Source: Nguyenibacter vanlangensis (GTDB taxonomy: Bacteria > Pseudomonadota > Alphaproteobacteria > Acetobacterales > Acetobacteraceae). Taken from it: DNA of 64,000 nucleotides. Shown here in pieces: positions 47,864-64,000 of the stretch. The notes below the pieces were generated by a model. It was not told where the DNA came from, ran no database searches, and saw nothing but the letters and a program-made list of their open reading frames with translations. The position numbers and the translations under genes are program-made. How positions within the stretch are numbered: the stretch's first letter is position 1; each line of letters opens with the position of its first letter. Where the stretch lies: assembly GCF_038719015.1 (NCBI RefSeq), contig NZ_CP152276.1, positions 1,250,001 to 1,314,000 on the forward strand, given 5' to 3'.

Positions 47864-48070
47864 ATGACGACAGGCACCGTAAAATGGTTCAATGCAACCA
47901 AGGGTTTCGGTTTTATTCAGCCCGGTGACGGGACTGCGGACGTGTTCGTTCATGTTTCCGCCGTCGAGCGCGCGGGGCTCGCCACCTTGAGCGAGGGGCA
48001 GCAGATTTCTTATGAAATCGAAGCCGGACGCAACGGCAAGAAGTCCGCTGTGAGCCTCAAGGTCGCATAA
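47864..48070 (+). CDS. Cold-shock protein, CspA family
   Basis: A single cold-shock domain protein of 68 residues, a single-stranded nucleic-acid chaperone. RNP1 (KGFGFI) and RNP2 (VFVHVSA) are intact in [20 protein letters not shown]. The ATG at 47864 has AAGGAG upstream; the open frame extending further left is part of the leader. It is followed by a strong intrinsic terminator, so it is monocistronic. Confidence 0.95.
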
Positions 48071-48100
48071 GCCGCCTGGCATGCAGCGATGCATCTGGAA

Positions 48101-48126
48101 AAGCCGCCTGAAAGGGCGGCTTTTTT
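48101..48126 (+). terminator. Intrinsic terminator of the cold-shock gene
   Basis: GCCGCC (48103-48108) pairs with GGCGGC (48115-48120), extended by A-T pairs, and is followed directly by six T residues (48121-48126). Confidence 0.9.
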
Positions 48127-48197
48127 GCGTTCTGTGTGATGGGTCCGGCATGTTTCCGCGCTTCGTGACGGTGCGCGGATGTTGGAAAGTATGCGTG

Positions 48198-48267: not shown

Positions 48268-50787
48268 TCAGAAGCCGGCGGTGACGGTGAACATGGCGGC
48301 GAAGTTGGGGGCGATCAGATAGGTCGGCGCGCCGGCCGAGTCGATCAGGTTGCCGTAGACGCCCGTCACCGGGTTGGTGTTGTTCGACAGGCTCTGGACC
48401 GACGAGCGGTAGTGCCAACTGGCCAGGTTATACATGTTCAACTGGATCTGCGGGTGTTTCAGGCGCCAGACATTGGGCAGGCGATAGCCCAGGGTCATGT
48501 CGATCTGGCCGTGCGCGGGCAGCGATTCCTGATCCATGAAATCGGAATATTGCTTGTCGATCCAGCGATACATGAAATTGCCGAAGAACGTGCTGTCGTC
48601 GTAGCTGAGCGCGGCGCTGGTGGTGAATTCCGGCGCCTGCGGCGCGCGCTTGCCCGTGGTGGGCAGGTAGTCGACCACGCCGTTCTCGGCCACCGCCGGC
48701 AGGTTGTTGTCGGTGCGGGCATAGAGATATTCGGCCGAGACGTACGGGCTGATATGGTGCCACGGGCGCAGGCCGAATTCGATGTCGGCGCCGCGCACGG
48801 TCTGGCCGCCGGCATTAACCCCGACGCCGCCGAACGAACTGCCGTTGATGACGACGCTGGTGGTGATGTTGCGGTTGGTGAAATTATAGTTGAACAGGCT
48901 GACCGTCAGGTTGAAGAGCCCGTAATGGCGATAGCCCAGTTCCTCGGAAATCGCGAATTCGGGCTTGATCGACCCGCCGATGCCCGGGCTGTTGCCCGGG
49001 ATGCCCGAGAAATAGGACGAGGCCAGCGGCATGCGGAAATTGGCCGCGGCGTCGAAATAGACCTGGTTATGGTCGTCGATCTTGTAGCTGGCGGCCACGC
49101 GCGGCAGCGGCGCCGTGTAGTTCACGCCGACATTGTAGGGCTGCGCGTTGTCGTAATTATTGGTACCCTGGCGATTCATCATGACATATTTGAAGCCGGC
49201 CTCAACCTTGAGCCGGTCGTCGAGCCAGGACGAGGAATCGCTGACATAGAGCCCGGTCGACTGGGTGATCAGGTGATAGTTCAGGAACAGGTTGAATTCA
49301 TACCCGTTCTGGAACTTCAAGCCGTAGGAGCCCCAGGTGTTCGGCGGGTCGCCGTTCGGGCCGAGCTGACTGATATTGGTCCATTCCGCGTCGTCGTAAT
49401 AATCGTGGAAGGCGCCGAGGGTCAGCTTGTTGTGGTGGTCGAGCTGATATTCGAGATGCGCGTTGATGCCGGGGTGGAATTCCTTGATCATGTAATAGCC
49501 CTCGCCATGGAAGGAGGGCGTGCCGGCATCGTTGTAGGCCAGGCCGGGGTAAGGCAGGACCAGGTTTTCGTTCTGTCCGGTCGAGGGGTTGTAATTGTTG
49601 ATCGGCATGTCCCACTGGCCCATGCCGCCGCCGCCGCTGCCCCAGTAGAAATAGGGCTCGACCAGCAGGGAAAGTTTCCGGGTCAGGGTGAAATGCATCG
49701 GCGCGACCAGGATCATGTTGCGCCAGTCGCCGACCTCGGTCACCCAGTAGCTGCCGGCGGCGGTGGACTGGAACGGGTACGGGCTGTAATTGTAACTGTC
49801 GCCGTATTGCTTCCATTGCTGCGCGGTGACGGGCGCGTAGTTGGGCTGGTTGTTTTCGTTATAGGTCTCGACGAACGAGATCGAATTGCCCTCGCCCCAT
49901 TCCTTGACGAACTTGGAATCCACGTGGCGCCGCATGCCGCGCCCGGGACCGCGCCAGGTGCCGTAGGTGGCGTTGGAATAGGAGACGAAGCCCCGCACGC
50001 CGGTATTGAGGATGTCGCCGGTATTGATGCGGATGAAGCCGCGATTGGTCTTGTGCGAGCCGTAGGAATAATCCATCAGGCCGCCGAAGGTGTGCGACGG
50101 GTCGATCGTCGTGACGTTCATCTGGCCGCCCGTGGCGTTGACCAGCGGGGCGTTGACGTCCGACGTGCCCTGGGAGAGCTGCACTTCCTCGTAATTCTCG
50201 GTGTCGCCCCATTCCGAGGTGTACGGGTCATAGGTCGCGATGTCGGCGACCGGCGCGCCCTCGAACAGATAGCCGATTTCCGACTGATTCATGCCGCGGA
50301 CATTGATCGAGGTCTGGTCCGACAGGCCGAACGGATCGGACGAGCCGATATTGGTGCCGGGGGCGAACTGGATCATCTGCGCCGCCGAAGTGGCGGGGGC
50401 CAGCTTGGCGATGAAGTCGCGGCTGACGGTGGTGACGGCCTTGGCCTCGGTCTCGACGCTCATCATGCCGCCGCCGGGGGCCAGGCCGGTCACGCCGTTG
50501 GCGCTGGCCACGGGGTTATGGCTGGTGACGACGATATCTTCGGCCTTGGGCGCCGGCGCGGCCGCGGCGACATGGCGTGCCGCGGGGGTTGAAGCGGCGA
50601 CGGGGGCGCCGGCGGGGGCGGCGACGGGCGCGGCCGTCTTCCTGACCGGCCCGGCCGGCGCATGGCGGTGACGCGGATGGTGCTGCGTGACCGGCGCCGC
50701 GGTCTGCGCCTGCGCGCCGGCCGCGAGAATGCTGCTGGACAAGGCCGTGCTGGCGACCAGCAGCCCGAAGATAAATCGTGACGACAA
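48268..50787 (-). CDS. TonB-dependent outer-membrane receptor
   Basis: An 839-residue outer-membrane active-transport receptor. A signal peptide (LSSRFIFGLLVASTALSSSI, cleaved near GAQAQT) is followed by a His/Ala/Pro-rich stretch of about 75 residues, then the TonB box region EDIVVTSH, a plug domain (about 130-260) and a 22-strand barrel ending ...FAAMFTVTAGF with the terminal aromatic. The start is TTG at 50787; no in-frame ATG exists in the region and the GGAGACGGGGG upstream serves as ribosome site. It lies downstream of the catabolic operon, 230 bp after the flavoprotein gene, and probably imports that pathway's substrate or a complex of it. Confidence 0.88.
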   Translation of the reverse strand: MSSRFIFGLLVASTALSSSILAAGAQAQTAAPVTQHHPRHRHAPAGPVRKTAAPVAAPAGAPVAASTPAARHVAAAAPAPKAEDIVVTSHNPVASANGVTGLAPGGGMMSVETEAKAVTTVSRDFIAKLAPATSAAQMIQFAPGTNIGSSDPFGLSDQTSINVRGMNQSEIGYLFEGAPVADIATYDPYTSEWGDTENYEEVQLSQGTSDVNAPLVNATGGQMNVTTIDPSHTFGGLMDYSYGSHKTNRGFIRINTGDILNTGVRGFVSYSNATYGTWRGPGRGMRRHVDSKFVKEWGEGNSISFVETYNENNQPNYAPVTAQQWKQYGDSYNYSPYPFQSTAAGSYWVTEVGDWRNMILVAPMHFTLTRKLSLLVEPYFYWGSGGGGMGQWDMPINNYNPSTGQNENLVLPYPGLAYNDAGTPSFHGEGYYMIKEFHPGINAHLEYQLDHHNKLTLGAFHDYYDDAEWTNISQLGPNGDPPNTWGSYGLKFQNGYEFNLFLNYHLITQSTGLYVSDSSSWLDDRLKVEAGFKYVMMNRQGTNNYDNAQPYNVGVNYTAPLPRVAASYKIDDHNQVYFDAAANFRMPLASSYFSGIPGNSPGIGGSIKPEFAISEELGYRHYGLFNLTVSLFNYNFTNRNITTSVVINGSSFGGVGVNAGGQTVRGADIEFGLRPWHHISPYVSAEYLYARTDNNLPAVAENGVVDYLPTTGKRAPQAPEFTTSAALSYDDSTFFGNFMYRWIDKQYSDFMDQESLPAHGQIDMTLGYRLPNVWRLKHPQIQLNMYNLASWHYRSSVQSLSNNTNPVTGVYGNLIDSAGAPTYLIAPNFAAMFTVTAGF

Positions 50788-51017
50788 CGTAACCCCCGTC
50801 TCCGTTGAAAATGAAAATACGGCGCCTTTCCACCCCCGGAACGGGCGCCGATATCCGCTGGAATTCCTGATTCCATAACGGATTCGTAATATATATCGCG
50901 CGCGGCCCGGTTGCCAGTGCAAAGTCACCCCGGCATGAGGTACAGACCGATTCGACACATGGAATGCGGCCGGAATACCACATCCCCGCCCGGCAGGTAA
51001 CAGGGGCCGGGCGACGG
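50788..51017. other. Leader of the TonB-dependent receptor gene
   Basis: A 230-bp gap between the flavoprotein stop and the receptor start, large enough for a separate promoter. An AT-rich patch near 50880-50900 is the most likely site. No riboswitch was recognised. Confidence 0.4.
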
Positions 51018-52448
51018 TCAGGATTCGGCCGCCCGCCCTGCCCCGTTCGGCGCCCCATCCAGTGCCCCGGCCAGCGCCTCGAAACTGCGCATCTTGCCGG
51101 GATTGAGCAGGCCGGCCGGGTCGAATCGCCGCTTGTCGGCGGCGAGATCCGGCGAGAGGCCGCGATGGGCGCCGCCGTCCTCGATCGTGTAGACATGCGG
51201 GTTGGCCACCGAGATTCCGGCCGCGTCGTGCGCGGCCATGATCTTGTCCAGGCGGGCCGAATCGGTGAAGCGGATCACCGGCAGGCCGGCGCAGGACATG
51301 CCGCCCTCCATGGGCAGGAATTCCAGGTGGGTCAGCAATTCGTCGGGGAACTGCGCCGCGAGCGCCGCGACCCGGGCCAGTGCGTCGGCGGGCGGAAAGC
51401 CGGTCTGCAGATAGGTGTAGGACCGGTCCTTCTTGAGCACCTGCAGGGTGGTGTGGTTCCAGGTCAGTTCGTAGAGCGGGACGTGCCCGGGATCGTCCTC
51501 GGCCTCGGCCGTGTTGCACGAATAACACAGTTCGCCATGTTCCCGCGCGATCAGGGCGCGGGTGGGTTCGATGGCGGCGGGCGCCATCATCAGGATGACC
51601 AGGGCCCGGCCGGCGGGCACCCGGTTGCGCAGCGGGGCGAAATAGGGCAACAGGCGGCAATCCATGACCGAGACCAGCTTCTTTTGCAGGCCGGTCTGGG
51701 TGGCGAGCAGGTGGGCGAAGCGTGCCGCCTGCGTCAGGTCGGGGAAGGCGACCGCCATGTCGCACCAATCGACGGCGGGTTCGACCGGCAGTTCCAGTTC
51801 GGTCACGAAACCGGTGGTGCCGTAGGCGTGGTTCACGATTCTGGTGTCGGGGCCGCGCAGTTCCACGGCGCGGGGTTCGTCCTCCATCGTCACCACGCGG
51901 GTCGCCAGCAGATTGCCCGGCGCGCGCAGCCCGCCCCACGTGACCGAGCCGATCCCGCCCGATCCGCCGCAGACGAAGCCGCCGATCGTCGCCGTGCGCT
52001 TGGTCGAGGGGAACATGCGCAATTCGCGCCCCTGGGCGCGCAGCGCGCGATCCAGCGCCAGCATGTTGGTGCCGGCGCGCACGCGCGCCACGTCGCCACG
52101 CAGCCAGACGAGCCCGTCCAGCCCGGTCATGTCGACGATCGCGCCGCCGCGCAGGGGCACGGCCTGGCCGTAATTGCCGGTGCCGCCGCCGCGCGCGGTC
52201 AGGAAGATGCCGCTCTGCCGCGCCGCGCGGGCGATGGCCAGCAGGTCGTGCTCGGTGCGCGGGGTGACGACGCAATCGGCCTGGAGCCCGTCGAGCTGTT
52301 CGCGCAGGATGGGGCTGTACCAATAGAAATCGCGGCTTTTGCGCCGGATCGTCGCGGGATCGGTGCTGGCCGGCACGTCGCCGACCAGCGCGAGGAATCG
52401 GTCCGTCGCCTGGTTCATCGCGCTATGGTTCATCGCGCCATGGTTCAT
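51018..52448 (-). CDS. FAD-binding (PCMH-type) oxidoreductase
   Basis: A flavoprotein of about 466-476 residues in the GlcD/vanillyl-alcohol-oxidase superfamily. FAD-binding motifs are RTEHDLLAIARAARQSGI and TARGGGTGNYGQAVPLRGGA, then TATIGGFVCGGSGGIGSVTWG; the C-terminus has the family's LLNPGKM. No signal peptide, so cytoplasmic. The start region has three tandem 15-bp copies giving in-frame ATGs at 52448, 52433 and 52418 (MNHGAMNHSAMNQ). It begins within 3 bp of the creatininase stop. It probably oxidises a hydroxy or amine intermediate of the pathway; the substrate is unknown. Confidence 0.88.
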   Translation of the reverse strand: MNHGAMNHSAMNQATDRFLALVGDVPASTDPATIRRKSRDFYWYSPILREQLDGLQADCVVTPRTEHDLLAIARAARQSGIFLTARGGGTGNYGQAVPLRGGAIVDMTGLDGLVWLRGDVARVRAGTNMLALDRALRAQGRELRMFPSTKRTATIGGFVCGGSGGIGSVTWGGLRAPGNLLATRVVTMEDEPRAVELRGPDTRIVNHAYGTTGFVTELELPVEPAVDWCDMAVAFPDLTQAARFAHLLATQTGLQKKLVSVMDCRLLPYFAPLRNRVPAGRALVILMMAPAAIEPTRALIAREHGELCYSCNTAEAEDDPGHVPLYELTWNHTTLQVLKKDRSYTYLQTGFPPADALARVAALAAQFPDELLTHLEFLPMEGGMSCAGLPVIRFTDSARLDKIMAAHDAAGISVANPHVYTIEDGGAHRGLSPDLAADKRRFDPAGLLNPGKMRSFEALAGALDGAPNGAGRAAES

Positions 52449-52454
52449 CGCTAG
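52411..52454. repeat. 15-bp repeat triplicating a start codon
   Basis: Units TGGTTCATCGCGCTA, TGGTTCATCGCGCCA and TGGTTCATCGCTAG lie head to tail. Each carries a start codon of the flavoprotein gene on the minus strand, and the last copy contains the upstream gene's stop codon. Confidence 0.95.
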
Positions 52455-53272
52455 ATCCCCAGATCGTCGCTGGGCGGGCGGATGCGGTCGAGCGGATAGC
52501 GCGCGATTTCGGCCAGCAATTCCAGGAATCCCGCCACCTGGCGTTCGGCGATCAGGCGGCCCTTTTCCGCCGTGGCGTTCGCCGCGTTTCCGGCCGCGCC
52601 GGAGGGGTGCAGATCCTGGGTGTGCCAGCCGAAGCCGACCCTGCCCTCGGCCTCGAGCCAGTGGAAATCCTTTGCCATTTCCTGCGGCCAGGGCACGAAA
52701 TTTCCGGCGCGCGCCATGTCCACCAGGTCGGGGCGCAGATGGAGCATCAGCGAGGTTTCGACATCGCCGCCATGGATGCCGAAGCGCAGTTCGTCGGCGT
52801 CGAACAGGCCGTCGGGCACGCCGAAGCGGCCCCAGCCGACGGTGACGACGAACATCCGGTGCGTCCGCCGCAATTCGCGCGCGACGATGTCGAGGATCTG
52901 CGGCTGGCCGCCATGGGAGTTCAGCAGCACCAGGCGGCGCACGCCGGCGCGGGCCACGCTGGCGCCCAGGTCGAGCAGCACCGATGTCAGGGTCTGCGCC
53001 GACAGGGTCAGGGTGCCGGGATAGGCGATATGTTCGTCGCTCTTGCCGACCGCCTGCATGGGCAGGGCGGTGACGGGCAGGTCGTCCGGCGCGCGCGCCA
53101 GCGCCAGGTCGAGCAGCCCGCGATTGATGCAGGCATCGACATAGACCGGCAGATGCGGCCCGTGCTGTTCGATGGCCGCCACCGGCAGGATCGCCACCGT
53201 GTGCGGCGACAGCGCGCGGAATTCGCGCGATTTCATATCCTGCCAGAGGCGGCGCGGCATCATGTCCGGCAT
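52451..53272 (-). CDS. Creatininase-family amidohydrolase
   Basis: A 273-residue metal-dependent hydrolase of the creatininase family, whose members open cyclic or linear amides such as creatinine and N-formyl compounds. Metal ligands fit E35, H37 (EQHGPH) and D46 (VYVDACIN), then NSHGGQ and HGGDVETS with the conserved Glu. ATG at 53272 has GGAAGGG upstream; the open frame to 53458 is a shadow of the cytochrome gene. It lies 43 bp after the cytochrome gene, in the same operon. Hydrolysis of an amide or lactam formed by the upstream enzymes is likely; creatinine itself is only one possibility. Confidence 0.9.
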   Translation of the reverse strand: MPDMMPRRLWQDMKSREFRALSPHTVAILPVAAIEQHGPHLPVYVDACINRGLLDLALARAPDDLPVTALPMQAVGKSDEHIAYPGTLTLSAQTLTSVLLDLGASVARAGVRRLVLLNSHGGQPQILDIVARELRRTHRMFVVTVGWGRFGVPDGLFDADELRFGIHGGDVETSLMLHLRPDLVDMARAGNFVPWPQEMAKDFHWLEAEGRVGFGWHTQDLHPSGAAGNAANATAEKGRLIAERQVAGFLELLAEIARYPLDRIRPPSDDLGI

Positions 53273-53315
53273 GCGGTCAAACCCTTCCGTGATTCCTGCC
53301 CCGTTTTCGCGCGCG

Positions 53316-54161
53316 TCATGGCGCGGCGCGGGGAGCGACGAGCTGCAGATAGGCCCATAGGGCGGCGATTCCGTCGTCGCCGATGAGATCGGGGGGAAAG
53401 CCCGCCATGGCCTGGGCGGGCCAGTGCCGGACCGCGCGCGGGTCGCGGACCAGGGCATGGAAGCCGGCCTGGGTCAGGTAGGCGGTGACGTTCATCGGTT
53501 GGCCCAGGTCGGGGCCCTTGGTGCCCCGGCCGATGCCGTCCAGCCGGTGGCAGGGCAGGCAGTCGACCGCGAAGAGCGCGCGGCCGCGCGCCGCCTGCGT
53601 GCCGGCGGGCGCCGCCGGCAGCGGGTCGGGGTCGCCCTGCCCGATCGCCACCAGTTGCTCGACCCAGTCCTCACGCGGGATGGCGGCGGCATCGGCGCCG
53701 GTCCAGACCAGCGCGAACGGCCCCAGATCGGCCAGGCTGTTGCCGGGCCAGGGTCCTTCGGCGATCGCGATCCAGGCGGTGACGCCGCGGCGGCGCGCGG
53801 CGCGCAGGGCGGCACAGGGGACGCCGGCCACGAACCTGTCGCGCGCGGTGAAGATGAGGGCCTGCCCGCCGCACGGCGCGACATGCGACAGGGGGATGGC
53901 GGCCACCCCGGCGCCCAGCTTCACGGTAGTGCGCGACAGGTCCAGCCGGACGAGATCGGCGCGGTGCAGCAGGGCGGCGGCCGGCAGGCGGCGCACCGAG
54001 GCGCCGTCGGTGACGGTGAGGTCGGCCCCCCGTCCGCCGGCCGGGCACAGGAGCAGCCACGCCGCCATGGCCGCCGCCATCGGGGCCGTGATCCGGGCAG
54101 TGATCGGGGCCGTGATCGGGGCCGTCGGCGCCGGGGCGCGCCGTGCCATGCCTGCCGCCAT
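53316..54161 (-). CDS. Exported cytochrome c
   Basis: A 281-residue protein. The signal sequence (residues 1-45) contains repeated TAPI units. Residues 46-180 resemble a small molybdopterin-oxidoreductase-like accessory fold (LTVTDGASVRRLPAAALLHR, PWPGNSLADLGPFALVW), lacking visible cofactor ligands. Residues 190-281 are a class I cytochrome c with CLPCH haem attachment and a likely Met ligand in QAMAGFP. It would accept electrons in the periplasm. It lies 2 bp after the Rieske-fusion stop codon. How it couples to the cytoplasmic enzymes of the operon is unclear. Confidence 0.82.
   Translation of the reverse strand: MAAGMARRAPAPTAPITAPITARITAPMAAAMAAWLLLCPAGGRGADLTVTDGASVRRLPAAALLHRADLVRLDLSRTTVKLGAGVAAIPLSHVAPCGGQALIFTARDRFVAGVPCAALRAARRRGVTAWIAIAEGPWPGNSLADLGPFALVWTGADAAAIPREDWVEQLVAIGQGDPDPLPAAPAGTQAARGRALFAVDCLPCHRLDGIGRGTKGPDLGQPMNVTAYLTQAGFHALVRDPRAVRHWPAQAMAGFPPDLIGDDGIAALWAYLQLVAPRAAP
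54081..54125. repeat. 12-bp tandem repeat in the cytochrome c signal peptide
   Basis: About four copies of a GGGGCCGTGATC-type unit. On the coding strand they encode the TAPI/TARI repeats of the signal sequence. The frame is preserved. Confidence 0.9.
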
Positions 54162-54163
54162 GC

Positions 54164-56167
54164 CTAGAGGTCCAGCACCAGGCAGGCGCCGCGCGCCCGC
54201 GAGCAGCAGGCCATGATATGCGTGCCCCGGGCCTTGTCGGCTTCGGACAGGAACAGGTCGCGATGGTCGGGCTCGCCCTCCAGCACGCGGGTGACGCAGG
54301 TGCCGCACAGGCCCTGTTCGCACGAGACCGGGATGCTGATCCCCGCCGCGCCCAGCGCCTGGGCGATGCTGCGGTCGGCGGGGATTTCGACCGTCACGTT
54401 GCTGCGTTCGGCGCGCACCATGAACGGACGGCCCTGGATATCGACGTCGGCGGTGAAGCGTTCAGCATGCACGCGGTCGCCGTCCCAGCCCAGCGCGCGC
54501 GCGGCGGCGGCCACCGCGTCCTGCAGGCCCAGCGGGCCGCAGACCTGGACATGCGCGCCCTCGGGCGCGGCGGCCAGCACGCCGGGCACGTCGAGGCGTC
54601 CGCCCTCGGCCGCCAGGTGGGGCGTGACGTGGGCGGCATAGGGGGCGGCCAGGGCCTCGTCGAGGAAGGGGGCGGTCCGGCGGGAATGGGCGCAGACATG
54701 CAGCGCGAAGGGACGGCCGGCGCGGTGCAGCTCCAGCGCCATGGGCAGGAGCGGCGTGATGCCGATGCCGCCGGCGATCAGCACCACGAAGGGGGCGTCG
54801 GCCAGGGGGAAATGATTGCGCGGCAGCCCCACCCGGACCTGCCGGCCGGGACGGAAGGCGCCATGCACCGTGGCCGAGCCGCCGCGGGACGCGGCCTCGA
54901 GCAGCACGGCGATGCGCCAGGCGGCGCGGTCTTGCGGGTCGGAACACAGCGAGTAGTGCCGCACCAGGCCGGGGGCGACATGCAGCGCGACATGCGCGCC
55001 CGGCGCGAAGGGCGGCAGTTCGGCGCCGTCGGCCGGGCGCAGGCGCAGCGACAGCACGCGTTCGGCCTGGTTGCGCACGTCGTCGACGATCATGGGGATC
55101 GTGTCCTCGCGATCGGGGCCCGGCATGGCGGGCGGCGTTGCCGAGGGCGGCGGAGGGCGGGTGATTTCGTCCTCGCCATGGCGGCGCAGCAGGTCGAGCA
55201 GGCGGCGGCGCATGATCAGGCCGGGGCGGTCGGAGGGCATGTGGCTTTCGACCTGGCGGGTGATGTCCAGGGTCGCGTCGCAATCGGTGGCTTCGAGGAT
55301 CTCGCGGTCCTCGTCGGTGATCTTGCGGTCCCAGGCGATCAGGCGTTCGGCGGGGCAGTCTTCCTCGCGGTCGTTGCGGTAGAGGAGCTGGACGAGCTGG
55401 ATCCGGTCGTCCTCGATCGGGGTGGCGCAATTGATGATGATGTGGCGGATGCCGCTGGGATACGCCATGTCCATCCGGCGGCAGAACGGCATGTACCAGT
55501 GGTTGTGCATGGTGCGCGTGGTGGTGGGCGACGGATCGCCGGTGATCGCCACCGCGTCGGGCGGGTTGAGGATGTCGACCACCGTGGTGGCGTAGAAGCC
55601 GTAATCGGTCTCGGCGATGTCGTAGAATTTGGGCCTGGGCTGGGTGATGTCGCCGAACGTGCCGCGATGCACGTAGGAAAAATGCGCGTTGTCGAAGGAG
55701 TTTTCCATCAGCCGCAGCGGCGCGGTCCGCCAGGTGTCGTAGAACTGGAAGATGCGGCGGAAGGCGGGGTCGCGGTCCTCGGGGATGTCGAAGATGTCCG
55801 CGATGGGATCGTCCAGCGCCACCCAGGCATAGCCGTAGCGCGCCTGGCAGCGGAAGGACTGCACCCGGCAGGCGGGCAGCGGCGCGTCGCGGCCCAATTG
55901 AGGGATTTCGGTCAGGCGGCCCTGCCCGTCATAGCGCCAGCCGTGATAGCCGCAGACGATCTCGCCATGCGCGCACCAGCCCTTGGAGAGTTTCGCGGTG
56001 CGGTGGCAGCAGCGGTCGCGCAGCGCGCGGGGCGCGCCGCCGGCATCGAGGAACAGGACCAGGTCCTCGCCCATCAGGCGGAAGGGCCTGGGGCCGGCGG
56101 CCAGGTGATGCACCGGCATGACCGCGTACCAGAAGCGGCGCAGCACCGCCTGTTTGGTGGTCAGCAT
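54164..56167 (-). CDS. Single-chain Rieske oxygenase-reductase fusion
   Basis: A 667-residue protein joining two normally separate components. Residues 1-340: Rieske oxygenase alpha subunit with [2Fe-2S] ligands C53, H55 (CCH) and C72, H75 (CGYH), and mononuclear-iron ligands H162 and H167 (FDNAHFSYVH). A proline-rich linker (about 345-365). Residues 366-585: ferredoxin reductase with a flavin motif HYSLCSD and NAD motif GGIGITPLLPMA. Residues 589-667: plant-type ferredoxin with C616, C621, C624 and C654 (CEQGLCGTC; MACC). All electron-transfer modules are thus in one chain, so hydroxylation or N/O-demethylation could be self-sufficient. The ATG at 56167 has GGAGGA and overlaps the amidohydrolase stop. 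The continuous frame rules out a simple frameshift fusion only if the sequence is correct. Confidence 0.9.
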   Translation of the reverse strand: MLTTKQAVLRRFWYAVMPVHHLAAGPRPFRLMGEDLVLFLDAGGAPRALRDRCCHRTAKLSKGWCAHGEIVCGYHGWRYDGQGRLTEIPQLGRDAPLPACRVQSFRCQARYGYAWVALDDPIADIFDIPEDRDPAFRRIFQFYDTWRTAPLRLMENSFDNAHFSYVHRGTFGDITQPRPKFYDIAETDYGFYATTVVDILNPPDAVAITGDPSPTTTRTMHNHWYMPFCRRMDMAYPSGIRHIIINCATPIEDDRIQLVQLLYRNDREEDCPAERLIAWDRKITDEDREILEATDCDATLDITRQVESHMPSDRPGLIMRRRLLDLLRRHGEDEITRPPPPSATPPAMPGPDREDTIPMIVDDVRNQAERVLSLRLRPADGAELPPFAPGAHVALHVAPGLVRHYSLCSDPQDRAAWRIAVLLEAASRGGSATVHGAFRPGRQVRVGLPRNHFPLADAPFVVLIAGGIGITPLLPMALELHRAGRPFALHVCAHSRRTAPFLDEALAAPYAAHVTPHLAAEGGRLDVPGVLAAAPEGAHVQVCGPLGLQDAVAAAARALGWDGDRVHAERFTADVDIQGRPFMVRAERSNVTVEIPADRSIAQALGAAGISIPVSCEQGLCGTCVTRVLEGEPDHRDLFLSEADKARGTHIMACCSRARGACLVLDL

Positions 56168-57555: not shown

Positions 57556-58544
57556 AGCGGCATGACTTTGGCGCGCGCGACATAGCGGGTGGTGAAGGCG
57601 GCGCGCCAGTCGGCGGCAGCCGGCAGCAGCGCGTTGCCGACCATGAAATCGCGGGTGGCCTGCCAGCGGGCCTCGGTCATCGCGCCGATGCCCAGCCGCG
57701 CCGCGTCGCCGCCGTCCACGGCGCGGGTGGCGGCGAGCCCGCGCACGCCGAAGGCGAGCTGTCCGTCGGTCATGCGGGGATTGTCCTTCTTGATCAGGGC
57801 GTTGCCGATTTCCGGCGCGCGCAGATAGTCGCGCCATCCCGCGAGGGAGGCCGCCACGAAATCCGCCGTCAGCGAATCGTTCGCCGCCGCGAAGGCGCGC
57901 GTGGTCAGCAGCGGGGTGCCGTAGGGCGGATAGCCGATGGCGGCGAAGGGGAAGAAGCGGACGGGGACGCCGTGCAGCGCGGCCTGGTACGGTTCGGAGG
58001 AGGCATAGGCCTGCACCGCCATCGCCGGGTCGTGGAAGAAGGGCTGGAGATTGAAGGTATAGGCGCCGAGCTGGGCGTCGCTGAACCCATAGCGGGCGCG
58101 CAGCCAGGGCCAGAAGGTGGCATGGGCGGTGCCGGCGATCAGGATCGGGTGGCCGCGCAGCATGGCCAGGGCGGTGACGGATTCATGCGTCATCAGCCCC
58201 TGCTGGTCGTGCTGGAAGGAGGCCGCGACCGTGAGCAGCGGCATGCCGGCGGCGATGCCGCGCAGGGTCTGGAAATCGTACCCGGTGGCGAAGTCGGCCT
58301 GGCCGGCCAGCAGAAGCTGCATGGCGTTGACCTGCGGGCCGCCCATGGCGATGCGCACGTCCAGCCCGCGATCGGCGTAATAGCCGCGGGCCAGGGCCTG
58401 GTAGAAGCCGCCGACCTCGGCCTGCGCGAACCAGGAGAGCACCAGCCGGACCGGCGTGCCCGCCCGCGCGCGCCGCGCCGCCGGCGCGGCGGCCCCGGCG
58501 ATGGTCACGGCGGCGGAGAGGGCGGCGCGGCGGGTGAGCGTCAT
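57552..58544 (-). CDS. NMT1/THI5-type substrate-binding protein
   Basis: A 330-residue periplasmic binding protein of the NMT1/THI5-like family, which binds pyrimidines, riboflavin-like or other aromatic small molecules for ABC import. A twin-arginine-like signal (TRRAALSAAVTIAGAAAPAA) precedes the mature protein. The family core VRLVLSWFAQAEVGGFYQAL and GGPQVNAMQLLLAGQADFA are clear. It is the first gene of the leftward operon and has no transporter partners of its own strand, whereas a paralogue at 60.4 kb is followed by an ATPase and a permease. It may use that transporter too. No clear ribosome site precedes the ATG. Confidence 0.88.
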   Translation of the reverse strand: MTLTRRAALSAAVTIAGAAAPAARRARAGTPVRLVLSWFAQAEVGGFYQALARGYYADRGLDVRIAMGGPQVNAMQLLLAGQADFATGYDFQTLRGIAAGMPLLTVAASFQHDQQGLMTHESVTALAMLRGHPILIAGTAHATFWPWLRARYGFSDAQLGAYTFNLQPFFHDPAMAVQAYASSEPYQAALHGVPVRFFPFAAIGYPPYGTPLLTTRAFAAANDSLTADFVAASLAGWRDYLRAPEIGNALIKKDNPRMTDGQLAFGVRGLAATRAVDGGDAARLGIGAMTEARWQATRDFMVGNALLPAAADWRAAFTTRYVARAKVMPL

Positions 58545-58763
58545 GAACGGGGCATCGATCGTGGGTGTCGCGTGCGTGTCGGGCCATTGGAGGGGGACAT
58601 GAGATCGTGTTCCCCGGCCATTTTGAAGCATCAAATAACGTGCCGGGTGCTGCTTTTTTGCGCGCGCGGAACGTCCTGGCCGGCATGGCCCGAACCGGGC
58701 TTGACCGGCGGGCGCGGGCGGCATGCTATGACGGAAACGCAATGACTGTTCCGAGGGCCGGCA

Positions 58764-59288
58764 ATGCAGGATGGTTCGTTCATGCCTGATTCGTTCACCC
58801 TGGCCTCGCGCCTGGCCAAGCTGGCGATGGTCGCGTCGCTGGCGGCGTTCGGGCTGCTGGTCGCCTTCAACAACCTGACCGATTACCGGTCGAACTTCCT
58901 GTTCGTGCGGCACGTGCTGAGCATGGACACGACCTTTCCGGGCACTGCGCTGACCTGGCGCGCGATTCACGCGCGCTGGGCGTGGCATGGGTTCTATCTG
59001 CTGATCATCCTGGGGGAAGCGGCGACCGGGATGCTGTTCCTGATGGCGGCGGGGGCGATGCTGCGCGCGCTGCGGGCGGACCGCGCGGCATTCCGCCGGG
59101 CGGCGCGGCTGGTGCCGCTGGGCACCGCGCTGGGGTTTCTGATCTGGTTCTTCGGCTTTTCGGTCGTGGGGGCGGAATGGTTCGCGATGTGGCAGTCCCG
59201 TGACTGGAACGGCCAGCAGCCGGCCTTTCGCTTCTTCCTGACGATGCTGGGGGTGTGCATCTATGTCAGCCTGCCCGAGGACGGGTGA
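58764..59288 (+). CDS. DUF2165 family small membrane protein
   Basis: A 174-residue inner-membrane protein with four predicted helices (about residues 20-38, 75-100, 115-140 and 150-170). The motif NNLTDYRSNFLFVRHVLSMD followed by WRAI is characteristic of DUF2165. No function is known for the family. A GAGGG lies before the ATG at 58764; an ATG at 58782 is possible. It is divergent from the catabolic operon and converges on the LysR gene, with only 4 bp between stops. Confidence 0.82.
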   Translation: MQDGSFMPDSFTLASRLAKLAMVASLAAFGLLVAFNNLTDYRSNFLFVRHVLSMDTTFPGTALTWRAIHARWAWHGFYLLIILGEAATGMLFLMAAGAMLRALRADRAAFRRAARLVPLGTALGFLIWFFGFSVVGAEWFAMWQSRDWNGQQPAFRFFLTMLGVCIYVSLPEDG

Positions 59289-59292
59289 CGGG

Positions 59293-60189
59293 TCACAAGG
59301 TCCGTTCGATGACGGCGCCGATCTTCTCGGCCATCAGGCTGACCAGCGGATTGACGTGGTTGAGGCGGGCGATCACGCTGAGGGTCTGCGGCCAGGTGCC
59401 GGCATGGCGCAGGGGGACGAGGGCGAGTTCGCCGCGCTCGCGTTCCTCGATGATGTCGAAGGGGGTCAGGAAGGTGATGGAATCCCCGGCGCGGGCCAGG
59501 CGGCGCAGGACCTCGACGGAGTTGCTTTCGACCCGCGCGACCAGGGAGGCGCCGCTGCGCGCGCACAGCGCGTCGAGATGCGGGCGGATCGAGGTCGTGG
59601 GGTCGGCCACCACCAGCGGATAAGCCAGGCAATCGGCGATCGACAGGCTTTCGCGCCGCGCCAGGGGGTGGTCGGCGCGCATGACGGCGCCGAGATGGGC
59701 GGTCCGGGCCACCAGGACGGTCGATCCGGCCTCTCGCGGGAGGTCGAAGCCCACGCCCAGGTCGGCCTCGCCGTCGCGCACGGCGGCCAGCAGTTCGGTG
59801 CGGCCATGGACCCGCAGGGCGACGCGCACATTGGCGTGCGAGACCTGAAAATCGGCCAGCACCTGGGGCATGATGTTGGCGGCCGGGCCGCTCATGACCG
59901 CCAGCACGATCTCGCCGCGATGCAGGCCCTTCATTTCCTCGATCAGGGCGCGGGTGCGGTCCATGTCCTTGAGCGTCTGGCGGACATGGGCGATCATCAG
60001 TTCGCCCGCCGCGGTCAGGACCAGCTTGCGCGGCAGGCGCTGGAACAATTTGGTCCCGAGCTGGCGCTCCAGCTCGATGATCTGGCGGTTGATCGCCGAG
60101 GAGGCGACGTTGAGGCGCTCGCCGGCCTTGCGGATCGAGCCCAGCCGCGCCACGACGTCCAGATAGACCAGCATCCGCCCGTGCAGCAT
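59293..60189 (-). CDS. LysR-family transcriptional regulator
   Basis: A 298-residue regulator. N-terminal winged HTH (about residues 4-64; VARLGSIRKAGERLNVASSAINRQI) and an effector-binding domain (about 90-295; EIVLAVMSGPAANIMPQVLADF). The ATG at 60189 has GGGGGA upstream; the frame upstream is not conserved. It is divergent from the second substrate-binding-protein operon with 167 bp between starts, the usual position for a LysR activator. It may also control the leftward catabolic operon. The inducer is probably a pathway metabolite (inference). Confidence 0.92.
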   Translation of the reverse strand: MLHGRMLVYLDVVARLGSIRKAGERLNVASSAINRQIIELERQLGTKLFQRLPRKLVLTAAGELMIAHVRQTLKDMDRTRALIEEMKGLHRGEIVLAVMSGPAANIMPQVLADFQVSHANVRVALRVHGRTELLAAVRDGEADLGVGFDLPREAGSTVLVARTAHLGAVMRADHPLARRESLSIADCLAYPLVVADPTTSIRPHLDALCARSGASLVARVESNSVEVLRRLARAGDSITFLTPFDIIEERERGELALVPLRHAGTWPQTLSVIARLNHVNPLVSLMAEKIGAVIERTL

Positions 60190-60356
60190 GCGCTGCGTCC
60201 CCCTTTTCACTTGCCCGCAACTGGTGGGGCGCCGGGGCGCCGCGGTCAAGATCCGTGCTGCCTTTCAGGCAGCGCCGCGCGCGTGAAATGTCTCTTTCCA
60301 TTCCCGGAACGGGGACGTTACGCTGCCCGTCCGTTGCAATCATGAGACGGTGCCTG

Positions 60357-61406
60357 ATGCCTGACCGCGCCATCGGACGACGCGCCGCCCTGCTGGGCAT
60401 GACGATGACGGGCGCGGGTGCCCGCGCCCTGGGTGCCCATGCCTCGGGTGCCCATGCCTCGGATGCCCATGCCTCGGATACCAGCGCGCCCGGGCGCCTG
60501 ACGCTGGTGACCAACTGGTATGCCCAGCCCGAGCTGGGCGGGTTCTATCAGGCGCAGGAAAGCGGCCTGTATCGCGCGGCCGGGCTGGATGTGACGATCC
60601 GGTCGGGCGGGCCGCAGGTCAATGCCATGCAGTTGCTGCTGGCCGGCGCGTGCGACGTGATCGTGGGCCAGCCGGACGCGGCCATGGTGGCGGCGCTGCG
60701 CGGCATTCCGGTGGTGACGATCGGCGCCTGTTTCCAGAAATGCATGACCGGGTTCCTGACCCATCCGGATATCGGCGGCCTGTCGGACCTGAAGGGGCAT
60801 CCGCTGCTGATCAGCACCGAGGGGCGGTCGACCTATTGGCCGTGGCTGAAGCGGACCTATGGTTTCACGGACGCGCAGGCGGGGGTCTATACCTACAACC
60901 TGCAGCCGTTCGTCCATGATCCGGCGCTGGCGATCCAGTCCTTTCTGTCCTCGGAGCCCTATGCGGTGCGGCAGATGGGGGTGGCGTTCAAATATTTCCT
61001 GTTCGCGGATGCGGGTTATCCGACCTATACCAACGCGCTGCTGGTCTCGCGCCGGACATTGGAGACGCGGGCGGATGCGTTGCGGCGGTTTCTGGCCGCC
61101 AGCGCGCGGGGCTGGCTGGATTACCTGTATCATGACCCCGCCGCCGGCGATGCCGCCATATTGCGCGACAATCCGGCCAATACGACCGACCACATGGCCT
61201 GGTCGCGCCGGACGCTGCGCGAGGTCCATGCGATGGGCGCCCCGGGGCAGATGCTGCTGGGCATGAGTGCCGCGCGGTGGGCGCGGATCCACGAGGTGGT
61301 GGCGCTGTCCGGAGGGGCGGCCGGCGGGGCGGCCGATGGGGCGGCGTGGCGCGATGCCTATACGACGGCGCTGTCGGACGCGCTGACCGACACGGTGCCG
61401 GCGTGA
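60357..61406 (+). CDS. NMT1/THI5-type substrate-binding protein
   Basis: A 349-residue periplasmic binding protein, paralogous to the one at 57.6-58.5 kb (LTLVTNWYAQPELGGFYQAQ, SGGPQVNAMQLLLAGACDVI, SSEPYAVRQMGVAFKYFLF). The signal carries RRAALLGM twin-arginine-like residues, then a stretch of GAHAS pentapeptides encoded by a 15-bp tandem repeat before the mature domain (about residue 45). Possible starts are ATG 60342 and ATG 60357; I prefer the second, with GAGACGG upstream. Its stop overlaps the ATPase start. It delivers substrate to the adjacent ABC importer. Confidence 0.9.
   Translation: MPDRAIGRRAALLGMTMTGAGARALGAHASGAHASDAHASDTSAPGRLTLVTNWYAQPELGGFYQAQESGLYRAAGLDVTIRSGGPQVNAMQLLLAGACDVIVGQPDAAMVAALRGIPVVTIGACFQKCMTGFLTHPDIGGLSDLKGHPLLISTEGRSTYWPWLKRTYGFTDAQAGVYTYNLQPFVHDPALAIQSFLSSEPYAVRQMGVAFKYFLFADAGYPTYTNALLVSRRTLETRADALRRFLAASARGWLDYLYHDPAAGDAAILRDNPANTTDHMAWSRRTLREVHAMGAPGQMLLGMSAARWARIHEVVALSGGAAGGAADGAAWRDAYTTALSDALTDTVPA
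60432..60476. repeat. 15-bp tandem repeat in the binding-protein signal region
   Basis: Three units: GGTGCCCATGCCTCG twice, then GATGCCCATGCCTCG. They encode GAHAS, GAHAS, DAHAS. The frame is preserved. Confidence 0.95.
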
Positions 61407-62233
61407 ACGCGATGCCGGGCCCCGGGCCGCATGCGGGAGATGTCGCGACGCCGGTGGTCAGCCTGCGCGGGGTGGAGAAGGTCTTTGCCAACGGGGTGCG
61501 GGGGCTGGCGCCGCTGGACCTGGAGATCCGTCCCGGCGAGCTGGTCAGCCTGATCGGGCCGTCGGGCTGCGGCAAGAGCACGCTGCTGAAGCTGGTGGCC
61601 AACCTGCATGCGCCCACGGACGGGCAGGTCGCGTGGTGGGGCGGGGATTTCCGCACGGTGGGAACGGACGGACGGCGGCTGGCCTTCGTCTTCCAGGACC
61701 CGACATTGATGCCCTGGGCCAATGTGGCGGCCAACGTGCGCCTGCCGCTGGACCTGGACGGCGTGCCGCGCGCGGCGGCCGAGCGGCGCGTGCCGCCGGC
61801 GCTGGAGCAGGTGGGGCTGGCCCATGCGGCCGCGCGCTTTCCGGCGCAATTGTCGGGCGGGATGCGCATGCGGGTGTCGATCGCCCGCGCGCTGGTCACG
61901 AATCCCGACCTGCTGCTGATGGACGAGCCGTTCGGCGCGCTGGACGAATGCACGCGCAACCGGCTGGACGAGGACATGGCGGGGCTGTGCGCGCAGCAGG
62001 GGCTGACGACGCTGTTCGTCACCCATTCGCTGTACGAGGCGGCGTTCCTGTCGTCGCGGGTGATCGTGATGGCGGCCAATCCGGGCCGGGTCTTCGCCGA
62101 ATATGCCATCGAACCCGGGATCGCGCGGGACGGCGCGTTTCGGCTGAGCGCGCGCTTCGCCACCATCTGCCGCGATCTGACGGCGCTGCTGGCCGAGGCA
62201 TCCGCGTCCAGCCGGCTGGACGAGGAGTCCTGA
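61403..62233 (+). CDS. ABC transporter ATP-binding protein (nitrate/taurine/NMT1 type)
   Basis: A 276-residue ATPase of the SsuB/TauB type. Walker A GPSGCGKST, Q-loop FVFQDPTLMPWANV, signature LSGGMRMRV, Walker B LLLMDEPFGALDE and H-loop VTHS are all intact. The start is a GTG at 61403 overlapping the binding-protein stop (GTGA); an ATG at 61412 is also possible. It powers import together with the permease downstream. NMT1-type importers carry pyrimidines, purines-like or sulfonate ligands. Confidence 0.94.
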   Translation: MNAMPGPGPHAGDVATPVVSLRGVEKVFANGVRGLAPLDLEIRPGELVSLIGPSGCGKSTLLKLVANLHAPTDGQVAWWGGDFRTVGTDGRRLAFVFQDPTLMPWANVAANVRLPLDLDGVPRAAAERRVPPALEQVGLAHAAARFPAQLSGGMRMRVSIARALVTNPDLLLMDEPFGALDECTRNRLDEDMAGLCAQQGLTTLFVTHSLYEAAFLSSRVIVMAANPGRVFAEYAIEPGIARDGAFRLSARFATICRDLTALLAEASASSRLDEES

Positions 62234-62235
62234 CG

Positions 62236-63018
62236 ATGGGGGAAACGACGAGGGCGCGCCTCGCCGCGGTCGCGGCGCCGACGCTGGTGGGGGTGGCCGT
62301 CCTGCTGGCGTGGCAGGCGGGATGCCGGCTGTGGCACATCCCGCCCTATCTGATGCCCGCGCCCGGCGATATCGGCGCGGCGCTGGTGCAGAACGGATGG
62401 GCGCTGCTGCATGCGCTGCGCAGCACGCTGCTGGTCACCATGATCGCGCTGGGCCTGTCGGCGGTCCTGGGGGTGCTGGTGGCGTTTCTGCTGGTGCAGA
62501 GCCGGATGATCGAGCGCAGCCTGATGCCGTACGTGATCGTCATGCAGGTCACGCCGATCGTGGCGGTGGCGCCGCTGATCATCATCCTGGTCAAGACGAC
62601 GCTGCCGGCGCTGGTCATCTGCGCCACCCTGATCGCGATCTTTCCGATCATTTCGAACACGCTGCAGGGGCTGCGCAGCGTGGACCCGGGGCTGGCGGCG
62701 TTCTTTCGGATGCACAAGGCCACGCGGGTCCAGACCTTGCTGCGGCTGCAGGTCCCCAGCGCGGTGCCGATGTTCATGGCGGGGTTGCGGATTTCCAGCG
62801 GCCTGGCGCTGGTGGGGGCGGTGGTGGCCGAGTTCGTCGCCGGCACGGGCGGCAACAGCGCCGGACTGGCCTACGAAATCCTGCAATCGGGCTTTCAGAT
62901 GGACATTCCCCGCATGTTCGCCGCCCTGGCCCTGATCACGCTGGCCGGGCTGGTGCTGTACGGAGTGATGGCGGGGTTGCAGCAATGGGTGCTGCGGCGC
63001 TGGCACGAGCATGGCTGA
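62236..63018 (+). CDS. ABC transporter permease
   Basis: A 260-residue inner-membrane permease of the SsuC/TauC type with six predicted helices. The EAA-type loop is present in the LRSVDPGLAAFFRMHKATRVQ to LLRLQVPSAVPMFMAGLRIS region. GAGGAG precedes the ATG by 9 bases. It starts 2 bp after the ATPase stop. It forms the membrane channel of the importer. Confidence 0.93.
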   Translation: MGETTRARLAAVAAPTLVGVAVLLAWQAGCRLWHIPPYLMPAPGDIGAALVQNGWALLHALRSTLLVTMIALGLSAVLGVLVAFLLVQSRMIERSLMPYVIVMQVTPIVAVAPLIIILVKTTLPALVICATLIAIFPIISNTLQGLRSVDPGLAAFFRMHKATRVQTLLRLQVPSAVPMFMAGLRISSGLALVGAVVAEFVAGTGGNSAGLAYEILQSGFQMDIPRMFAALALITLAGLVLYGVMAGLQQWVLRRWHEHG

Positions 63019-63056
63019 GACGAACATGGTTGAGACCGCCCTGCGCGAAGCCCGCC

Positions 63057-64000
63057 ATGTTTGAGATGTCCGGATCGCGCCACGTGCTGCGCCGCGCCCG
63101 GATTCCGGCGGCGCTGACGCCCTGGCGCGCCCCCGGCGGCGGGGGCGGCGAGTGGGTGGAATGCGACATCGTGATCGCGGACGGCCGGATCGCGGCGCTG
63201 GAGCGCCTGCCGCCCGAGAGCGGGATGCCCGAGACGGACCTGGCGGGCGGGATGGTCTGGCCGGCTTTCGCCGATATCCATACCCATCTGGACAAGGCCT
63301 TTATCTGGGACCGCGCGCCCAATCCGGACGGCACGTTCGCCGGCGCCGTCCAGGCGGTGACCGCGGACCGCGAGCGGCACTGGACGGAGCAGGACGTGCG
63401 CCGGCGGATGGAATTCGCGCTGGCCAGCGCCCATACGCACGGCACGCGGGCGATCCGCACCCATCTGGACATCGCGGGCGCGCATGGGCGAAGGGTATGG
63501 CCGCTGATCCGTGCGCTGCAGGCTGAATGGGCCGGACGGGTGGCGTTGCAGGCCGTGGCCCTGGTGATGCCCGAAGCCTATGACGGGGCGCAGGGAGCAG
63601 AGATCGCCCGCGCCGCCGCCGGCACGCCGGGCGGGATGCTGGGCGCGGTGCTGATGGGGCACAATACCGGCGAGGCCGTGCTGGACCGGCTGTTCGGGCT
63701 GGCGCGGGACCATGGGCTGGACCTGGACCTGCACGTGGATGAGAACGGCGAGGCCGGGGAGACGGCGCTGGAGCAGGTCGCCGCCGCTTCGGCGCGGCAC
63801 CGGTTCGCCGGGCGGGTGGTGTGCGGCCATTGCTGCAGCCTGTCGGTGCAGCAGGCGGCGCGCGCCCGCGACATCGCCGCGCGGGTCGCCGATGCCGGGA
63901 TCGGCGTCGTCAGCCTGCCGCAATGCAACCTGTATCTGCAGGACCGCGCGGCGGGCGCCACGCCGCGCTGGCGCGGGATCACGCTGGTGCATGAGCTGGC
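63057..64000 (+). CDS. Cytosine-deaminase-like amidohydrolase, 3'-partial
   Basis: The first 314 residues of a metal-dependent hydrolase; it runs off the window without a stop. The N-terminal beta-sandwich is followed by the barrel with HTH metal ligands in FADIHTHLDKAFIWDR, an RTHLDI strand, a HVDENGEAGE motif holding the third His and the catalytic Glu region, and VCGHCCSLS with the fourth His. This matches CodA-type cytosine deaminases and related isocytosine or heterocycle hydrolases; the last Asp ligand would lie beyond the window. It follows the permease by 38 bp. The start could also be the ATG at 63066. A ring-deaminating role in the same pathway is likely. Confidence 0.85.
   Translation, partial: MFEMSGSRHVLRRARIPAALTPWRAPGGGGGEWVECDIVIADGRIAALERLPPESGMPETDLAGGMVWPAFADIHTHLDKAFIWDRAPNPDGTFAGAVQAVTADRERHWTEQDVRRRMEFALASAHTHGTRAIRTHLDIAGAHGRRVWPLIRALQAEWAGRVALQAVALVMPEAYDGAQGAEIARAAAGTPGGMLGAVLMGHNTGEAVLDRLFGLARDHGLDLDLHVDENGEAGETALEQVAAASARHRFAGRVVCGHCCSLSVQQAARARDIAARVADAGIGVVSLPQCNLYLQDRAAGATPRWRGITLVHEL

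Follow-up and report, generated by a model that had tools for sequence, protein, structure and literature searches.

Several described systems resemble parts of a gene cluster located in a 64-kb window (the whole stretch of 64,000 nucleotides that was analysed) of the genome of Nguyenibacter vanlangensis, which consists of one contig of 4.75 Mb and is estimated to be 99.7% complete. The NMT1 motif (RF03054) is a riboswitch that binds xanthine and urate and switches genes off. Its gene list, in the part of the source that was available, includes NMT1/THI5-like proteins, tauA, pcbC-like oxygenases, hcaE (Rieske) and PRK12393 (Yu and Breaker, 2020, PMC7373994), and the metabolic use of the regulon is described in that part as not readily apparent. 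The locus of the window shares with this regulon a binding protein, an ATP-binding cassette (ABC) importer, an oxygenase (Rieske or 2-oxoglutarate-dependent, 2OG, in the regulon) and a PRK12393-type deaminase. In contrast to the regulon, it has a LysR-type regulator and no riboswitch, and it adds a flavin adenine dinucleotide (FAD) oxygenase, a creatininase-family protein, a RutB-like hydrolase, a cytosine-deaminase-like hydrolase (CDA), an S15 hydrolase and a cupin. Two solved structures offer further comparison. PDB entry 2PAJ, which we take to be the isoxanthopterin deaminase Sgx9339a of Hall et al. 2010, is of the PRK12393 type and has the motifs RGGxT and APxT in common with the window deaminase. 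Entries 6V42/6V43 display about 43% identity over near full length, and the same fold, with the window FAD oxidase.

The locus is proposed, at a probability of roughly 60%, to import and break down pteridines (isoxanthopterin/folate-pterin catabolism) by means of two modules. This proposal builds on the PRK12393/2PAJ-type deaminase, the 6V42-type FAD oxidase and the xanthine riboswitch that precedes homologous operons. An earlier note made from the DNA sequence had seen here an undescribed catabolic locus, in which two operons carry binding proteins, an amidohydrolase, a Rieske oxygenase, a cytochrome c, a creatininase-family protein, a flavoprotein, a TonB-dependent receptor, an importer and the CDA. 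Gene calls in the window recovered all of these genes with intact frames, and the leftward operon is tightly packed: the frames of binding protein 1 and the deaminase overlap by 4 bases, those of the deaminase and the Rieske protein by 7. The gene set is thus real. Concerning its novelty, the whole set was not found in the open-access literature, but parts of it are described (2PAJ, 6V42 and the gene list in the available part of PMC7373994). Novelty would lie in the one-chain Rieske fusion and in the assembled pathway.

The amidohydrolase gene at 56161..57555 (minus strand) codes for a protein scoring 679.7 bits with the NCBIfam model NF009059 (PRK12393), above the cut-off of 543. The score obtained with NF006055 (8-oxoguanine deaminase) was 427.5 bits, below the cut-off of 532. 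Sequence search of the PDB delivered 2paj as the closest solved structure (2.9e-123), with an identity of 46%. Substrate recognition in 2PAJ reportedly involves a conserved Gln, a Tyr and two Thr. The motifs HHHLFQ, DHHY, RGGTT and APNT, to which these residues were assigned in the present analysis, occur in the window deaminase as in 2PAJ. All 16 8-oxoguanine-type control loci, which were the analysts' choice among hits over the corresponding cut-off, display RG[SA]M and APC in place of RGGxT and APxT. The window enzyme is predicted from these sequence features to be an isoxanthopterin/pterin deaminase. The identity of 8-oxoguanine deaminase was rejected, as the NF006055 cut-off was missed, RG[SA]M and APC are lacking, and a separate gene of the same genome passes this model (549.7 bits, at 3.77 Mb). 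According to the part of a secondary source that was available, where 2PAJ is not named, isoxanthopterin and pterin-6-carboxylate are deaminated by enzymes that Hall et al. found (PMC5270733).

These data also bear on the main rival explanation, the salvage of oxidised purines, according to which guanine-, 8-oxoguanine- or methylpurine-like bases would be imported and oxidised toward xanthine and urate. This is considered unlikely. Besides the deaminase scores and motifs, the genes for 8-oxoguanine deaminase and xanthine dehydrogenase are encoded elsewhere in the genome, as is that for 2-oxo-4-hydroxy-4-carboxy-5-ureidoimidazoline (OHCU) decarboxylase, about 10 kb from xanthine dehydrogenase, so that at least these purine-catabolism genes lie outside the locus. 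Moreover, 2PAJ is said to be inactive on the purines assayed, and the title of 6V42 refers to folate catabolism. Purine salvage is favoured by the neighbours in some related loci, which by sequence reading are of BMP-type binding-protein and Mo-hydroxylase-like nature, and by annotated Mo subunits found in one plasmid stretch beside module B, i.e. the module with FAD oxidase, CDA, ABC importer, binding protein, RidA and creatininase.

A gene over the PRK12393 cut-off is present in 11 of 398 Pseudomonadota genomes, that of the window included. Seven of the ten others have the Thr of RGGxT, and all seven adjoin a binding protein together with a Rieske or a 2OG oxygenase. Since either oxygenase is found beside this type of deaminase, the two appear to be interchangeable. 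Neither a binding protein nor an oxygenase was seen alongside the three genes lacking this Thr (L154-L156), one of the stretches (L156) breaking off where the contig stops, 2.6 kb beyond the gene. Genes over the cut-off are not all alike. Linkage to an oxygenase was observed for 7/10 PRK12393 genes versus 2/16 8-oxoguanine controls (p 0.009), and linkage to a riboswitch for 5/10 versus 0/16 (Fisher p 0.004). One of the seven linked genes (L158) belongs to a locus that is also among the 80 Rieske loci considered below (as L035), and the two sets are thus not independent.

The FAD-linked oxidase/oxygenase, a FAD_binding_4 flavoprotein (51018..52448, minus strand; PF01565, 4.3e-24), matched 6v42 in a phmmer search with 3.6e-119, the runner-up being at 1e-06. 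When its AlphaFold (AF2) model (pLDDT, the predicted local distance difference test, of 79) was compared by Foldseek, the same entry ranked first (E 2.8e-45, 43% identity). The PDB title of 6V42 reads 'Crystal structure of the flavin oxygenase with cofactor bound involved in folate catabolism'; no paper behind 6V42/6V43 was found in the open-access literature. This title favours a close variant of the pteridine proposal, namely folate or reduced-pterin catabolism proper, with a substrate such as pterin-6-carboxylate and with isoxanthopterin being incidental. The deamination of pterin-6-carboxylate mentioned above points in the same direction. A weak argument against the variant comes from Variovorax F1, whose folate-deaminating enzyme is of the Arad3529 type according to the available part of PMC9513972. 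The variant is judged quite improbable.

In 19 other genomes searched whole, the FAD oxidase is near single-copy: the best match falls within the Rieske locus in 13 genomes and at most 3.5 kb from the locus edge in two (Gluconacetobacter, Tanticharoenia), the second-best copy is within the locus in one, and in the last three it is elsewhere or absent. A relative 66% identical to that of the window is encoded in a module on pRL12 of Rhizobium johnstonii, where its partners are creatininase, LysR, binding protein, ATPase, permease, cytosine deaminase, NAD(P)H oxidoreductase and RidA.

The third line of evidence came from the xanthine riboswitch. RF03054 was detected in 16 of 398 Pseudomonadota genomes, and 18 riboswitch regions were examined, 17 from those genomes (G274 contributing two) plus one from Telmatospirillum. 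All 18 carry an oxygenase homologue, either Rieske (4 regions, 56-58% identical) or isopenicillin N synthase (IPNS)-like (14 regions, 29-43%), and a PRK12393-type deaminase is present in five (40-48% identical). Two of the operons, L134 and L135, show the order riboswitch, binding protein (53-55%), Rieske protein (58%), ATPase, permease and deaminase (45-46%), which is the import-deaminate-oxidise set of the window. Their deaminases are 89% (427/480) and 84% identical to 2PAJ, respectively. Consequently, a close relative of 2PAJ stands in an operon homologous to that of the window, the window deaminase itself being more distant from 2PAJ than the L134 enzyme. On plasmids, six annotated stretches were taken from 140 and 21 matching records, with three of the 21 deaminase records examined. 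On three plasmids (Klebsiella pneumoniae, a Paracoccaceae, Qingshengfaniella), a PRK12393-like gene (48-55% to that of the window) neighbours a 2OG oxygenase, and a riboswitch is present. On the K. pneumoniae plasmid p2B17602 (L151), both modules are divergent as in the window, and a strong xanthine riboswitch (63.4 bits) precedes the deaminase module. The second module there comprises creatininase, RidA, CDA, binding protein, ABC importer and reductase at 30-57% identity, with an annotated FAD oxidoreductase at the edge. Rfam gave no xanthine riboswitch over the gathering score in the 14 loci checked out of the 80 related ones, and in a set of 20 genomes only one has the motif. The ligands xanthine and urate, together with a gene list of NMT1, Rieske-type, PRK12393 and nucleoside transporter genes in the available part of PMC7373994, count in favour of oxidised-purine salvage.

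The central enzyme of the proposed pteridine pathway is encoded by a single intact frame of 667 codons (54164..56167, minus strand; PF00355, PF19112 (VanA_C), PF00111), in which the oxygenase and reductase halves are both complete. The former displays the Rieske ligands C53-x-H55...C72-x2-H75 and the mononuclear iron motif D159-x2-H162-x4-H167. The latter, of the PDR/VanB type, contains R403-x-Y-S (RHYS), GGIGITP at 466 and the cysteines C616-x4-C-x2-C...C of a [2Fe-2S] domain (Fer2, 1.5e-16). Ligand and cysteine positions are invariant in 25 aligned fused proteins, H162 being nearly so. The single-chain nature indicated by the earlier note was thus confirmed, and it is more important than was stated there: the window protein is a self-contained oxygenase in one chain which is predicted, from its domains and motifs, to be self-sufficient. 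A perspective of 2025 considers, in the part available, that a natural self-sufficient Rieske oxygenase is yet to be identified (PMC12445004).

The nearest PDB entries to the oxygenase half are SxtT/SxtDIOX and NdmA, a resemblance which again speaks for purine salvage. SxtT/SxtDIOX and NdmA act on purine-like rings, and the systems SxtT/SxtV, caffeine NdmA/NdmD and Klebsiella hpxDE reportedly use separate reductases, whereas that of the window is fused. For hpx, the purine-like ring is mentioned in the available part of PMC7373994. The reductase half is nearest to the P450s 6KBH and 6LAA and to phthalate dioxygenase reductase. Both P450s, which are presumably self-sufficient enzymes of the CYP116B type, carry a PDR-type reductase behind the oxygenase as in the window fusion, but their oxygenase is a P450 and that of the window a Rieske non-haem iron protein.

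At least 38 fused homologues of 672-684 residues were found among the best 120 of 682 matches, with 61-67% identity over 100% of the length. In most related loci, however, the oxygenase is unfused; the Gluconacetobacter orthologues stop after the oxygenase, with no reductase remnant detectable. In a phylogenetic tree, the oxygenase half of the window clusters with these unfused orthologues (99% support in the Shimodaira-Hasegawa-like approximate likelihood ratio test, SH-aLRT), apart from the 38 other fused proteins, whose branch includes one unfused row (L024) from a short contig. Mapping the fused or unfused state on the tree needs three changes, at least two of which are forced by starred branches. 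One clean origin of the fusion is not supported by this placement. The reductase halves of the 38 fused proteins are closer to that of the window (54-63% identical) than 12 other reductases (42-51%), so that one fusion with later losses may have occurred, as may two fusions. Two more distant Rieske-reductase fusions, P0075 and P0089, with 34-35% identity over nearly the whole length, were seen among the matches listed, hinting that one-chain Rieske oxygenases may have arisen more than once.

In order to find related loci, the alignment of 25 fused Rieske proteins was scanned against one genome per species (84,980 species). This confirmed 343 stretches, of which the best 80 were retained. Presence of a gene was scored by tblastn with identity thresholds set by the analysts after a first look at the matches; that for ATPase and permease (40%) is loose, given how common these families are. 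Bradyrhizobium supplies many of the 80 loci, which are not independent, so that p-values on them are indicative only. The importer is the most frequent component (binding protein 58, ATPase 61, permease 59), followed by the FAD oxidase (45), creatininase (40), RutB-like hydrolase (36), PRK12393 deaminase (36), CDA (22) and S15 hydrolase (13). Further neighbours are LysR (38), cupin-like (36), NQO-like reductase (28), RidA-like (22), IPNS-like oxygenase (10), DUF2165 (4) and BMP-like (3) proteins. The names cupin, NQO, RidA, IPNS and BMP are sequence readings of conserved neighbours; for NQO, RidA and IPNS, homologues in the plasmid stretches examined carry the corresponding annotation. Seven items were defined as core: binding protein, ATPase, permease, FAD oxidase, creatininase, RutB-like hydrolase and one of the two deaminases. 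All seven were present in 23 of the 49 loci of at least 18 kb.

The gene set is therefore conserved as a unit, more than a chance neighbourhood. The earlier note had claimed that the two operons jointly import and catabolise an N-heterocycle, and had named a lack of co-occurrence as a refuting condition. The claim withstood this test and is supported, with at least five core items in 37 of the 49 long loci and with both modules on the Klebsiella plasmid. PRK12393 deaminase and CDA rarely occur together over the 80 loci (both in 1, PRK12393 only in 35, CDA only in 21, neither in 23; Fisher p 3e-6, the loci not being independent), so that the CDA may take the place of the PRK12393 deaminase. Both are carried by the window and by Tanticharoenia (L017).

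The creatininase-family amidohydrolase (52451..53272, minus strand, start uncertain; PF02633, 6e-70) has a homologue in 20/20 genomes, the window's own included. A creatininase identity was rejected (TIGR04448, 94.4 bits versus a cut-off of 235), as were MftE (104.8 versus 172) and IolN (cut-off missed). The RutB-like cysteine hydrolase (66423-67211, plus strand, beyond the window; PF00857, 2.2e-33) was rejected as RutB itself, the ureidoacrylate hydrolase (TIGR03614, 125.6 versus 377.95), and as biuret hydrolase (NF050097, 120.3 versus 370). The CDA (63057..64334, plus strand, the window ending at 64000) passes NF005759 (PRK07583 'cytosine deaminase') with 538.7 bits versus 403, the name being an annotation only. 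Another N-heterocycle such as a triazine, hydantoin, creatinine or pyrimidine, to which family-level resemblance alone would point, is highly improbable in view of the missed equivalog cut-offs for creatininase, RutB and biuret hydrolase and of the deaminase and flavoprotein anchors, which favour pteridines. The purine-, pyrimidine-, triazine- or hydantoin-like substrate of the earlier note holds as far as an N-heterocycle is concerned and narrows to pteridines, with oxidised purines as the alternative; no evidence specific for triazines or hydantoins emerged.

For import, two NMT1/THI5-type binding proteins of about 42-44% mutual identity are encoded, the periplasmic binding protein 1 (57552..58544, minus strand; PF09084, 1.5e-27) and binding protein 2 (60357..61406, plus strand; PF09084, 9.2e-26). 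The AF2 model of binding protein 1 (pLDDT 90) was nearest to formylaminopyrimidine-bound, thiamin-bound and Thi5-type proteins, and would fit a heterocyclic ligand, none in particular; this resemblance to binders of pyrimidine-type ligands counts in favour of the pteridine proposal. Binding protein 2 is followed by the importer ATPase (61412..62233, plus strand; PF00005, 1.9e-33) and permease (62236..63018, plus strand; PF00528, 9.8e-26). An exported c-type cytochrome (53316..54161, minus strand; PF00034, 3.1e-08; CLPCH haem motif at residue 201) may serve as electron acceptor. The TonB-dependent receptor (48268..50787, minus strand, start uncertain; Pfam TonB barrel 5.9e-28, Plug 4.1e-10) lies about 230 bases downstream of the FAD oxidase. 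Neither the receptor nor the cytochrome c was found in any of the 80 related loci by tblastn at the set thresholds, and both were rejected as core parts. Extra stretches of two acetic acid bacteria gave TonB matches of 31% and 38% and a cytochrome c match of 49%; an outer-membrane-to-metabolism pathway, as proposed earlier, is therefore weakly supported.

The remaining features complete the layout. Gaps in the leftward operon are of 2 bases between the Rieske protein and cytochrome c, 43 between cytochrome c and creatininase and 2 between creatininase and FAD oxidase. Between the leftward and rightward operons sit a DUF2165 small membrane protein (58764..59288, plus strand; PF09933, 2.4e-58) and the LysR-type regulator (59293..60189, minus strand; PF03466, PF00126). 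The rightward operon extends 3.2 kb past the window edge with, on the plus strand, an S15/CocE hydrolase (64334-66013; TIGR00976, 350.5 bits versus a cut-off of 66.3) and a cupin-like frame (about 66010-66423), named by sequence reading and sharing 54% identity with one of the conserved neighbours in related loci, before the RutB-like gene. After the latter, a GPH-type symporter (family match) opens a further cluster (67309-76060) in which LacI regulator, TonB receptor, GMC oxidoreductase, TIM-barrel isomerase-like and NagB-like proteins were recognised by sequence reading; it is apparently a separate sugar catabolic locus. A weak match to the cspA thermoregulator RNA was noticed at 47756-48128 (plus strand; 34.3 bits versus a gathering score of 78). 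Among the 80 stretches retained, the closest relatives at the locus are acetic acid bacteria (Gluconacetobacter, Tanticharoenia).

Several points weigh against pteridines as substrate. RF03054 was found neither in positions 46001-66000 nor in the host genome with Rfam, and riboswitch control of the window locus was consequently rejected; Yu and Breaker interpret the regulon as purine oxidation in the part of PMC7373994 available. With the oxygenase half nearest to SxtT/SxtDIOX and NdmA, a purine substrate remains conceivable. The folate link of 6V42 is given by its PDB title only. The function and key residues of 2PAJ are attributed to Hall et al. 2010, the secondary source cited above leaving 2PAJ unnamed, and at only 46% identity the specificity of the window deaminase may have shifted. 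The L154, L155 and L156 genes (genomes G347, G081 and G274) have the top PRK12393 family scores and no linked module. The L155 gene also has guanidine-I and guanidine-II riboswitches at a distance of up to about 8 kb, which suggests another substrate for genes of that type. Neither deaminase is present in the 23 Rieske loci mentioned, nine of which are among the 49 long ones, and in L173 (genome G281) module B flanks a gene of the 8-oxoguanine-deaminase type. Finally, no pteridine-related role is attached to the CDA, the S15 hydrolase, cytochrome c, the TonB receptor or the DUF2165 protein.

For the pteridine pathway, we infer the reactions in the host, the substrate, the hydroxylated position, the order of the steps and the role of the creatininase-family enzyme. 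A pterin would be imported, the best candidate being isoxanthopterin, the product of xanthine dehydrogenase acting on pterin; the host xanthine dehydrogenase could perform this conversion and also use xanthine. The PRK12393 enzyme would deaminate isoxanthopterin to 7-hydroxylumazine. The one-chain Rieske oxygenase would then hydroxylate the ring, most plausibly at C6, giving tetrahydroxypteridine, with NAD(P)H electrons delivered via its own reductase half. The creatininase-family enzyme may open the oxidised pyrazine ring, judging from the chemistry of cyclic amide hydrolysis; ArfB, a relative in this family, has a formylaminopyrimidine as its substrate. Degradation of the pyrimidine fragment for nitrogen would fall to the FAD oxygenase, the RutB-like hydrolase and their partners. 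In relatives, the deaminase-oxygenase module might end, or be able to end, at xanthine, in which case the xanthine OFF riboswitch would be ordinary end-product feedback. The middle part of this scheme corresponds to a bacterial pathway reportedly described by McNutt in the 1960s, which runs from isoxanthopterin via 7-hydroxylumazine, tetrahydroxypteridine and xanthine-8-carboxylate to xanthine (EC 5.5.1.3). Two papers deal, in the parts available, with the compounds or with folate steps only. To our knowledge, the tetrahydroxypteridine cycloisomerase (EC 5.5.1.3) has long been an orphan step.

Pterins are made by nearly all life, in folate, the molybdenum cofactor and the pigments of insects and fish. 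As far as the literature search showed, the genes for breakage of the pterin ring are largely unassigned, and the locus delivers a concrete conserved gene list. Tentatively, it might represent the first genetic plan of how bacteria break down the pteridine ring, combining an isoxanthopterin deaminase, a folate-catabolism flavin oxygenase, a creatininase-family opener that may correspond to the EC 5.5.1.3 step and, in relatives, xanthine feedback by riboswitch, and having as its central enzyme a naturally self-sufficient Rieske oxygenase of a kind not recognised before. The pteridine proposal would offer a reason for a xanthine OFF riboswitch over deaminases and oxygenases. The locus also supplies natural one-chain Rieske oxygenases at a time when engineered fusions are being tried.

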